A stretch of 64,000 nucleotides of DNA from Arenicola marina (lineage: Eukaryota; Annelida; Polychaeta; Arenicolidae), in contig OZ025249.1 in the NCBI GenBank assembly GCA_964019135.1, positions 2,232,001 through 2,296,000 of the forward strand. The letters run 5' to 3'. A model generated the notes under the pieces. The model was not told the origin of the DNA, searched no databases, and saw only the letters and a list, made by a program, of their open reading frames with translations. This document shows, one piece after another, positions 18,826 through 64,000 of this stretch. The first letter of the stretch is position 1, and each line of letters begins with the position of its first letter. Both the position numbers and the translations under genes were made by a program.

Positions 18826-19290
18826 ATGAAGCGGAAGTACGTGGTGTTGGGGCTTGTGGTGGGGGTGGCCGCAGTGCTGGCCATAGCACTCGGGATTTAC
18901 TACGGGACCAGGGCGGACGAGCAGCCTCAACCCACCCCTGCACCCCCCATCCCCGGATCCTCGGAGCACGCCAGGATCGACTGTTACCCTGAAGGTCAAT
19001 GGGGTCACGAGACTGTGACGAGACAGTCGTGCGAGAGTCGCGGCTGCCGCTTCCAGCCGTTTGGTAACCCGGATGTGTACGTGCCGCCATGCTTCGTCTC
19101 TGAGGACAGCGTCCTTGGGAAAGGACTCAAGGTCACGAGCGGTCCGACAGACACGACCTTGGGCGTCCGCTATGAATTGGAGCCCAAGGTCACGGCGTCC
19201 GAGGCCGCATCCCATGACGTCATCAATAACGTCATCAGTCACGTGATGTTTGACATCGAGTTTCGGTCGACAGATGTGCTCCGCTTCAAG
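18826..19290 (+). CDS. Exon 1: signal anchor, stalk, trefoil domain 1, start of GH31 N-domain
   Basis: MKRK is followed by a hydrophobic segment (residues 5-25), fitting a type II membrane anchor. A Pro-rich stalk ([12 protein letters not shown]) follows. The trefoil has Cys53, Cys69, Cys74 and Cys89 in the spacing DC...QSC...RGC...PPCF; like several GH31 trefoils it lacks one disulphide pair. The frame is open upstream to 18598, but 18826 is preferred because the basic tail plus anchor then begins the protein. The donor is gtgagc, phase 0, after VLRFK, the same position and phase as exon 22. Confidence 0.85.
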
Positions 19291-22200
19291 GTGAGCTCAG
19301 CAAACACGACGTCTGGCGGCGGGTGACGGTAACATCTGTATTATATAATCATAATATTTAATAATATTTTAATAATATTCTACCCTATTTAATTGTTCTA
19401 CCTCGTTGTTCTAAGGATGGACACATATAGCTAAACAGTATTCTAGCGTTATAGCTGAATAGTATTGTGGTGAAATAGAATTGCACATTTTTCTGCATCT
19501 AGACATCTTTCTGCAGATAGATATTCTAGCCAAATAGCGTTGTAGCTGAATAGTATCATGGTGAAATAGAATTGCACATCTTTCTGCATCTAGACATCTC
19601 TCTGCAGATAGATATTCTGTTGTGGATGGATTTCTCTCGGTGACAGTTTGGCCCTCGACTGTGTCAAGAACCTGACTGATCCCCTTGACTGACCCCCTTG
19701 ACGGACCTCAATATGTAAATTTTCCATTTCAACGTCAAGTGCGGTATCGAGGTGCAGGGCTAAGTAAGGCTTTGTGTAACGTTGTAAGTAAGGTTTTCAC
19801 ATTGAGGTGTACTGTGTAATATATGTGTGCAACACGGGTATATTTTGTGTTGTGTAATATGTAATACGTATACAGTGTATACTCTGTAATGTATGTGTGT
19901 TACACGGGTAACGAACTATGTGTATACTGTACTTAGTTACGCCAAATATATCTAATATACAAACGGCATATGTGGCAAACGGTGTTGTTTTTAACTCAGT
20001 CATCACCGTCGGATACATGAATGCAGTTTTGCGTTATTGTAAGTTGGAAAAACCTGTGGTACCTCGGTCATAATTTATTTATACGGCAAGACTACATAAT
20101 AAAACACTGATATAAATGAAACTATAATTCGGGTAAACGACACACAGTGACCATGTGATGTCCATCTGACGTCTAATTAAGAAACAAGGTGAATCCAGCT
20201 ATTTGATAGCAGGTCGGTACCTGTTTATATTTTTGGTGTTATACTTTTGAGACGTGGGGTGAAAGCAAGGATGTGGAGGGTGGGGTGTACCAGAGGTCCC
20301 TGTAACAGTCTGCCTAGGCCTGCTCCAGACCGTCACTCTCCCACAGTGTGGGTGGGGGGACTCCCTGTAACAGTCTGCCTAGGCTTGCTCCAGACCTTCA
20401 CTCTCCCACAGTCTGGGGGGGTGGGACTCCCTGTAACAGTCTGCCTAGGCCTGATCCAGACCTTCACTCTCCCACAGTGGGGGGGAGGGGGCTCCTTGTA
20501 ACAGTCTGCCTAGGCCTGATTCAGACCGTCATTCTCCAACAGTGGGGGGGGGGGACTCCCTGTAACAGTCTGCCTAGGCCTGATCCAGACCGTCACTCTC
20601 CCACAGTGGGGGGGGGGGGGCTCCCTGTAACAGTCTGCCTAGGCCTGATCCAGACCGTCACTCTCCCACAGTGGGGGGGGGGGGGTGGAGCTCCCTGTAA
20701 CAGTCTGCCTAGGCCTGATCCAGACCGTCACTCTCCCACAGTGGGGGGGAGGGGGCTCCTTGTAACAGTCTGCCTAGGCCTGATTCAGACCGTCACTCTC
20801 CAACAGTGGGGGGGGGGACTCCCCGTAACAGTCTGCCTAGGCCTGATCCAGACCGTCACTCTCCCACAGTGGGGGGGGGGGACTCCCTGTAACAGTCTGC
20901 CTAGGCCTGATCCAGACCGTCACTCTCCCACAGTGGGGGGGGGACTCCCTGTAACAGTCTGCCTAGGCCTGATCCAGACCGTCACTCTCCCACAGTGGGG
21001 GGGGGGGGAGGGGGCTCCCCGTAACAGTCTGCCTAGGCCTGATCCAGACCGTCACTCTCCCACAGTGGAGGTGGGGCTCCCTGTAACAGTCTGCCTAGGC
21101 CTGATCCAGACCGTCACTCTCCCACAGTGGGGGGGGGGGGCTCCCTGTAACAGGCTGCCTAGGCCTGATCCAGACCGTCACTCTCCCACAGTGTTGGGGG
21201 GGGGGGGGTGGGCTCCCTGTAACAGTCTGCCTAGGCCTGATCCAGACCGTCACTCTCCCACAGTGGGGGGGGGGGACTCCCTGTAACAGTCTGCCTAGGC
21301 CTGATCCAGACCGTCACTCTCCCACAGTGGGGGGGGGACTCCCTGTAACAGTCTGCCTAGGCCTGATCCAGACCGTCACTATCCCACAGTGGGGGGGAGG
21401 GGACTCCCTGTAACAGTCTGCCTAGGCCAGATCCAGACCGTCACTCTCCCACAGTGTGGGGGGGACTCCCTGTAACAGTCTGCCTAGGCCTGATCCAGAC
21501 CGTCACTCTCCCACATTGGGGGGGAGGGGGGCTCCCTGTAACAGTCTGCCTAGGCCTGATCCAGACCGTCACTCTCCCACATTGGGGGGGAGGGGGACTC
21601 CCTGTAACAGTCTGCCTAGGCCTGATCCAGACCGTCACTCTCCCACAGTGGAGGGGGGGGCTCCTTGTAACAGTCTGCCTAGGCCTGATTCAGACCGTCA
21701 CTCTCCCACAGTGGGGGGGGGGCTCCTTGTAACAGTCTGCCTAGGCCTGATTCAGACCGTCACTCTCCCACAGTGGGGGGGGGGGACTCCCTGTAACAGT
21801 CTGCCTAGGCCTGATCCAGACCGTCACTCTCCCACATTGGGGGGGAGGGGGACTCCCTGTAACAGTCTGCCTAGGCCTGATCCAGACCGTCACTCTCCCA
21901 CAGTGGGGGGGGGGGGCTCCTTGTAACAGTCTGCCTAGGCCTGATTCAGACCGTCACTCTCCAACAGTGGGGGGGGGGGGACTCCCTGTAACAGTCTGCC
22001 TAGGCCTGATCCAGACCGTCACTATCCCACAGTGGGGGGGAGGGGGCTCCTTGTAACAGTCTGCCTAGGCCTGATTCAGACCGTCACTCTCCAACAGTGG
22101 GGGGGGGGGACTCCCTGTAACAGTCTGCCTAGGCCTGATCCAGACCGTCACTATCCCACAGTGGGGGGGGGGGGGCTCCCTGTAACAGTCTGCCTAGGCC

Positions 22201-63600: not shown

Positions 63601-64000
63601 CCGCGTAAAGGTAGGATCAGGATCCAGCTCCGTCTGGAGGTGTGGGGCAGGATGTTCTGGGTAAAGGTTGGATCGGGATCCAGCTCCGTCTGGAGGTGTG
63701 GGACAGGATGCTACGGGTAGACGTAGGATCAGAAGCCAGCTCCGTCTGGAGTTTTGGGGCAGGATGTTCCGGGTATAGGTAGGATCAGGATCCAGCTCCG
63801 TCTGGAGGTGTGGGACAGGATGCTCGGGTAAAGGTAGGATCAGGATCCAGCTCCGTCTGGAGGTGTGGGGCAGGATGCTCCGCGTAAAGGTAGGATCAGG
63901 ATCCAGCTCCGTCTGGAGGTGTGGAACAAGATGCTCCGCGTAAAGGTAGGATCAGGATCCAGCTCCGTCTGGAGGTGTGGGACAGGATGCTCCGGGTAAA
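60666..64000. repeat. 56-bp array carrying the last 33 bases of exon 22 and its donor (intron 22), cut by the window edge
   Basis: About 59 copies of CTGGAGGTGTGGGACAGGAT, GCTCCGCGTAAAG, gtaggatcaggatccagctc, cgt. The exon end is the founding unit. The donor region varies as gtagga, gttgga or gtgaaa. A block of about 616 bp recurs: the frames at 61794 and 62410 are near-identical. Confidence 0.96.

Follow-up and report, generated by a model that had tools for sequence, protein, structure and literature searches.

The accessible sections of two papers describe, under the name of mirages, tandem minisatellite-like duplications in amphioxus that run across an exon-intron boundary, on its 5' or 3' side and with units of 10-160 bp (PMC3087553, PMC3902484). 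Mirages are documented there for the globin genes BflGb6 and BflGb9 (PMC3087553) and for PGBD5 and TnC (PMC3902484), and somatic instability is mentioned for the mirage of Adh3, as cited in PMC3087553. In the same sections, the mirages are reported not to disturb splicing (PMC3087553, PMC3902484). Two other systems come close: introns gained via tandem genomic duplication of AGGT segments, as presented in the available part of PMC3443670, and earthworm metallothionein genes, which according to the available part of PMC12783039 carry minisatellites in intron 1 with units of about 180 bp on average. Searches of the open-licence literature, a scope that leaves subscription papers and preprints outside, brought up no account of mirages in animals other than lancelets.

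Here, we describe arrays of this type in the annelid Arenicola marina. The window, by which we mean the whole 64-kb stretch of DNA that was analysed, contains 22 exons of a GH31 gene, and in 11 of the 22 introns there the splice junction lies within, or directly next to, a minisatellite unit. The reference in the initial annotation to reports of intronic minisatellites in amphioxus was correct, as such reports exist and, in their accessible sections, describe the same pattern. Amphioxus as the host is ruled out by COX1: the only COX1 match in the genome is on a contig of 15,942 bp, and the protein is 91% identical to that of Pilargis wolfi (Annelida, Phyllodocida, Pilargidae) and 87-90% identical to those of other polychaetes, and the host is thus an annelid and not a cephalochordate. 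As short, bacterial-looking contigs are also part of the assembly, there is a remote possibility that the mitochondrion is foreign.

The gene was modelled by hand, and the model was compared with PDB matches and spliced alignments of foreign proteins. The 22-exon model gives a single frame of 1063 codons with 0 stops; all 21 complete introns have GT-AG borders, intron 22 starts with GT, and a second GH31 half of the same gene extends past the window edge. The top PDB matches of the protein are maltase-glucoamylases (9kz6, 3ton). Among the best 120 of 1351 protein matches, the named best ones are from Lineus (49%) and molluscs; these 120 include no lancelet and no named annelid. Judged by sequence, this affinity would fit a lophotrochozoan, though it does not by itself imply an annelid. 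For an independent check of the junctions, we aligned Lineus and Mercenaria proteins with our own spliced aligner, leaving the window protein unused. For the 22-exon model, a query with the first half of protein P0001 from Lineus longissimus placed 17 acceptors and 17 donors base-exact. It missed the exon 17 donor (54394 by this query, 54414 in the hand model), the exon 18 acceptor, the exon 19 donor and exons 20-22; exons 18 and 19 were recovered whole by the second-half query from Mercenaria. Compared by eye with P0001, position 60698 (AAG/GTAGGA) suits the intron 22 donor better than 60692, since the exon then ends in ...RVK, where the first GH31 half has intron 1. Rfam gave 0 matches in the 64-kb window.

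The TRF output for the window has 84 tandem-array rows. The gene and the arrays within it are as follows:

18826-60698, + strand: GH31 gene, maltase-glucoamylase/sucrase-isomaltase-like, exons 1-22 (hand-made model)
20297-22627, + strand: intron 1 array, 65 bp x about 36, ending at the exon 2 acceptor with 1 exon base
23279-25082, + strand: intron 3 array a, 17 bp x about 106, with 7 bases of the exon 3 end and the donor GTGAGT
25063-27387, + strand: intron 3 array b, 27/28 bp x about 84, a longer version with the same exon 3 end and donor, about 11-12 exon bases (by eye)
28443-35852, + strand: intron 4 array, about 62 bp x about 122, with the acceptor and 36 bases of exon 5
36357-38068, + strand: intron 6 array, 47 bp x 36, with the acceptor and 14 bases of exon 7
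39730-40635, + strand: intron 8 array, 34 bp x 27, with 28 bases of exon 8 and the donor
40667-40834, + strand: single duplication of the exon 9 acceptor and exon 9 start, 83 bp x 2 (TRF)
40925-41889, + strand: intron 9 array, 28 bp x 34, beginning exactly at the donor GT with 0 exon bases
42053-46635, + strand: intron 10 array, 46 bp x about 101, with about 13 bases of exon 10 and the donor (TRF start 42137, first copies by eye)
46730-47237, + strand: second intron 10 array, 46 bp x 11, touching no junction
47398-50602, + strand: intron 11 array, 50 bp x 63, with 39 bases of exon 11 and the donor
53152-54276, + strand: intron 16 array, 43 bp x 26, ending at the exon 17 acceptor with 2 exon bases
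54401-56105, + strand: intron 17 array, 20 bp x 87, with 14 bases of exon 17 and the donor, which is less certain (one foreign query places it 20 bases upstream)
60654-64000 (window edge), + strand: intron 22 array, 56 bp x about 60, with 45 bases of exon 22 and the donor AAG/GTAGGA
27386-27938, 51351-51632, 52230-52521, 56147-57270, 57602-58524, 59615-59724 and 59925-60107, + strand: further arrays off junctions

The junction arrays thus have units of 17-65 bp in about 26 to about 122 copies, and lie at the donor in seven introns (3, 8, 9, 10, 11, 17 and 22) and at the acceptor in four (1, 4, 6 and 16). Exon bases are clear in the units of 8 of the 22 introns, and 3 further introns have 0-2 of them. 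The initial annotation had named introns 3, 4, 6, 8, 10, 11, 17 and 22 as those with coding bases in the unit, and such bases are present in all eight. The numbers it had given were recovered for introns 4 (36), 6 (14) and 17 (14) and nearly so for introns 8 (28, claimed 27) and 10 (about 13, claimed 14); they need correction for introns 3 (7 in the 17-bp and about 11-12 in the 27/28-bp unit, claimed 14), 11 (39, claimed 44) and 22 (45, claimed 33). Its description of introns 1, 9 and 16 as repeating the splice site alone comes close to the 1, 0 and 2 exon bases found, and TRF also returned the single duplication that it had noted at the exon 9 acceptor, as an 83-bp unit at 40667-40834.

Some other features of the window may be mentioned here. 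No stop interrupts the exon 10 reading frame for 1522 codons across the intron 10 array (41936-46600). Long open frames were considered as a marker of stop-free junction arrays and rejected, as matches with internal stops had a single frame value in common and long frames in GH31 exons did not follow junction arrays (5 long frames, 1 flagged). Upstream of the GH31 gene, a 29-bp array with 151 copies occupies 3975-8361 and has donor-like GTGAG/GTCAGT on both strands, and the consensus of a G-rich array at 777-991 would, in one frame, encode Gly-rich GGGGGGSQR/SHR repeats.

Random duplications would often hit junctions, and the eye overrates the pattern, because the introns minus their arrays are short. 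We therefore cut each array to one unit and compared the number of junction-touching arrays with the expectation for random founders. In the window, 10 of 21 arrays in the collapsed introns touch a junction, with 7.0 expected (P = 0.09; the intron 10 array was missed by one base). In nine GH31 regions, it is 19 of 65 arrays, with 11.5 expected (P = 0.011). These regions, which comprise eight other loci and this gene's own second half, were chosen by homology and not by arrays; the GH31 locus on C5 was excluded from the junction counts because none of the introns of its model is at a shared position. As low-penalty spliced models fragmented within arrays, a higher intron penalty was used, with five queries and support from two of the five. 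Two short contigs with long, near-complete GH31 matches, L009 (C703) and L010 (C204), look bacterial, and the assembly may therefore hold contaminants.

Since the TRF edges are too strict, as the one-base miss in intron 10 indicates, copies of 24-base junction windows were also counted directly. In the nine regions, 18 of 145 introns (12.4%) have a copied donor and 2 of 145 (1.4%) a copied acceptor, compared with 5.5% for interior windows, giving ratios of 2.25 (1.42-3.19) and 0.25 (0-0.59), respectively. A first-copy profile, in which later copies were removed from the denominator and positions beyond +80 served as the donor background, has 18/145 at the donor (2.27x) and 21/144 at +10 (2.67x) over a background of 50/914. 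Arrays peak at 0 to +30 on the donor side and show no peak at the acceptor, where enrichment is absent in the nine regions (2/145 against 52/994, ratio 0.26, P 0.037). Region-level bootstrapping puts the junction ratio at 1.12-3.82 and the +10 ratio at 1.27-4.83, and the donor junction ratio stays at 1.96-2.88 when any one region is left out, the region C18_2000 alone giving 6 of the 18 donor cases. For the window alone, the profile has 5 of 21 donors (ratio 1.79, P 0.14 at the junction; P 0.04 at +10) and 3 of 21 acceptors (0.84x), hence no depletion of acceptors, which make up 4 of the 11 mirages. Every profile figure comes from one gene family, GH31. The proposal in the initial annotation that splice junctions seed tandem duplication is therefore supported for donors (18/145 introns against 5.5%, ratio 2.27, bootstrap 1.12-3.82) but not for acceptors (2/145, ratio 0.26, P 0.037), and hence not for junctions generally.

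Outside the GH31 family, we read five 10-kb loci at preset positions, three of which (L033-L035) were scanned for arrays rather than for junctions. L031 contains, on the minus strand, exons of a NEMO CC2-LZ type gene (Pfam PF16516, E 4.4e-7 for one exon piece and 4.7e-13 for two exon pieces joined by hand), and a 68-bp array with 10 copies crosses a donor of this gene (last exon base 4366). In L032, an 80-bp (2 x 40) array probably lies over a donor-like site near 2152, in a putative gene without a Pfam family. At C4:367768-384767, adjacent matches to the myosin head cover the same parts of the profile again and again, which we take to be the arrangement expected of alternative exons in a muscle myosin gene.

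The initial annotation had suggested a genome-wide comparison of arrays with splice junctions, and this was carried out in a crude form by counting donor 9-mers. CAGGTGAGT occurs 13,815 times singly and in 3,050 close tandem pairs, and its reversed motif 5,357 and 1,042 times; pairs per single are thus 0.221 versus 0.195, or 1.14x. The corresponding counts are 8,453 and 470 for AAGGTAAGT and 8,881 and 324 for its reversed motif (0.056 versus 0.036, 1.52x). The test is weak both ways because large arrays dominate it and many matches are not real donors. Tandem donors are widespread in the genome, and their excess per occurrence is only 1.14x and 1.52x. One CAGGTGAGT array, on the minus strand at C1:1563815-1568637, has a period near 53 bp and at least about 75 intact copies.

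These counts bear on the simplest alternative, namely that splice sites play no role and that arrays arise at random in a minisatellite-rich genome, the short ancestral introns making junction hits common. The window itself, with 10 junction-touching arrays for 7.0 expected (P 0.09), is compatible with such a reading, as is the small difference between the pair-to-single ratios of CAGGTGAGT and its reverse. It accounts less well for a donor profile of 2.3-2.7x background in nine regions with a region bootstrap above 1, or for 18 donor against 2 acceptor cases within the same introns, and we regard it as rather unlikely.

We think it probable instead that the mirage-type minisatellites began as ordinary local tandem duplications, with a roughly 2-3x bias towards donors in the GH31 family, which then expanded and were tolerated. 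A local duplication of a few tens of bases would happen to take in an exon-intron border, and this founder could then grow by unequal exchange or slippage. Duplication of a donor would leave the upstream exon end and the donor in place, so that the outermost copy could work and the rest become intron; the arrays may be tolerated because this outermost copy remains the working junction. Duplication of an acceptor would add upstream AGs, perhaps chosen first by scanning, and fewer acceptor duplications would therefore survive. As such a survival filter explains fewer acceptors but not an excess of donors over interior positions, a mutational bias near 5' splice sites is needed in addition. Polymerase pausing and RNA-DNA hybrids are candidate causes of a bias of this kind. 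One might speculate further that 5' splice sites are tandem-duplication hotspots in this annelid lineage, with some property of transcribed donor regions, and not cuts at the junction, seeding minisatellites about 2-3x as often as elsewhere in introns, and that lancelets and annelids came to this condition independently; this is a possibility that we put forward tentatively.

A more specific version, in which the duplications are seeded by splicing-linked breaks, nicks or RNA-DNA hybrids at the 5' splice site, appears doubtful to us. The concentration of arrays between 0 and +30 of the donor, with no peak at the acceptor, is what one might expect of such events, but the units contain from 0 to 45 exon bases (27 usable of 29 junction arrays, 2 set aside), which places the cut off the junction. 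Compared with a uniform distribution, the breakpoint spread gives a KS P of 0.021 when the zero-exon cases are kept (n 27; for three donor arrays scored as zero, TRF begins 26-66 bases into the intron) and of 0.48 for the 20 arrays with exon bases; a smaller, hand-picked set (23 of 24 entries, several arrays omitted) gave 0.42. Because units seeded by a cut at the junction should begin there, the scatter of the exon bases per unit from 1 to 45 leaves a cut exactly at that point unsupported.

Selection for spare splice sites, likewise suggested in the initial annotation, is improbable. Many donors in the arrays are intact, with 129 GT[AGC]AG[TA] sites in the intron 3 arrays and 86 in the intron 10 array, and the splice dinucleotides are slightly better conserved than other unit positions (0.962 versus 0.933, Wilcoxon P 0.052). 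Their mean normalised rank among unit positions is nevertheless 0.47, where 0.5 means no effect, and this mid-rank position speaks against selection. We consider it very improbable that assembly error inflated the arrays: the copy numbers come from one assembly, but the copies differ from one another (84-95% match by TRF) and similar arrays recur across many regions.

The repeated independent origin of the arrays, as originally proposed, is supported by units that are unrelated apart from the intron 3 pair and scraps of splice consensus. After arrays 3a and 3b, the next best local scores between units are 18-21, with 99% of shuffled scores at or below 20, and what these pairs have in common is splice consensus and C-rich stretches. 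When two of the twelve arrays, those of introns 4 and 11, were searched against the whole genome (867 Mb, 762 contigs), each query matched only the array that it came from, and a dispersed repeat or transposon was rejected on these two queries. A common origin of all arrays from a single mobile or spreading repeat is hardly credible, since we found no point in its support and both the unrelated units (other than 3a and 3b) and the two genome searches stand against it.

All mirage introns except intron 22 lie at a position common to 3-10 of 11 GH31 models of the same genome, which were built with the window protein as query; the position of intron 22 was compared by eye only. As these positions are common to other GH31 genes, the introns are older than the arrays, which arose in introns already in place. 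A gain of introns through tandem genomic duplication calls for an intron at a position that has none in relatives and was rejected for this reason, ten of the eleven mirage introns being at shared positions.

Taken together, mirages, which have hitherto been regarded as a lancelet oddity, occur on a larger scale in an annelid and may be a convergent outcome of minisatellite-rich genomes. The annelid arrays provide a second system in which to study how tandem duplications begin and why donors and acceptors differ. They also raise the questions of how splicing copes with more than 100 decoy donors in a single intron and of whether introns lengthen, or new exons arise, through such arrays.

Compared with the gain of introns from AGGT segments as described in the available part of PMC3443670, the Arenicola arrays likewise involve tandem duplication of a gene segment with a splice-like site; there, a new intron is made from an exon, whereas the Arenicola introns pre-existed at shared GH31 positions. 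With the earthworm metallothionein genes, they share an annelid host gene and large tandem minisatellites in an intron, but the available part of PMC12783039 does not mention exon ends or splice sites in the units, unlike those found here. The likeness to the amphioxus mirages is closest, as the Arenicola arrays are tandem, have units of minisatellite size (17-65 bp) and span the exon-intron border. Splicing is kept in amphioxus, according to the accessible sections of the reports, whereas the Arenicola junctions are predicted from the intact frame and homology. The Arenicola arrays reach 7.4 kb and about 122 copies, compared with the 3 and 6 units given there for two globin haplotypes, and they further differ in having an annelid host, which concerns the range of mirages rather than their structure, in affecting 11 introns of one gene and in their measured donor bias. 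The kind of array is therefore already known, and what is new is the host lineage, the scale within one gene and the asymmetry between donors and acceptors.
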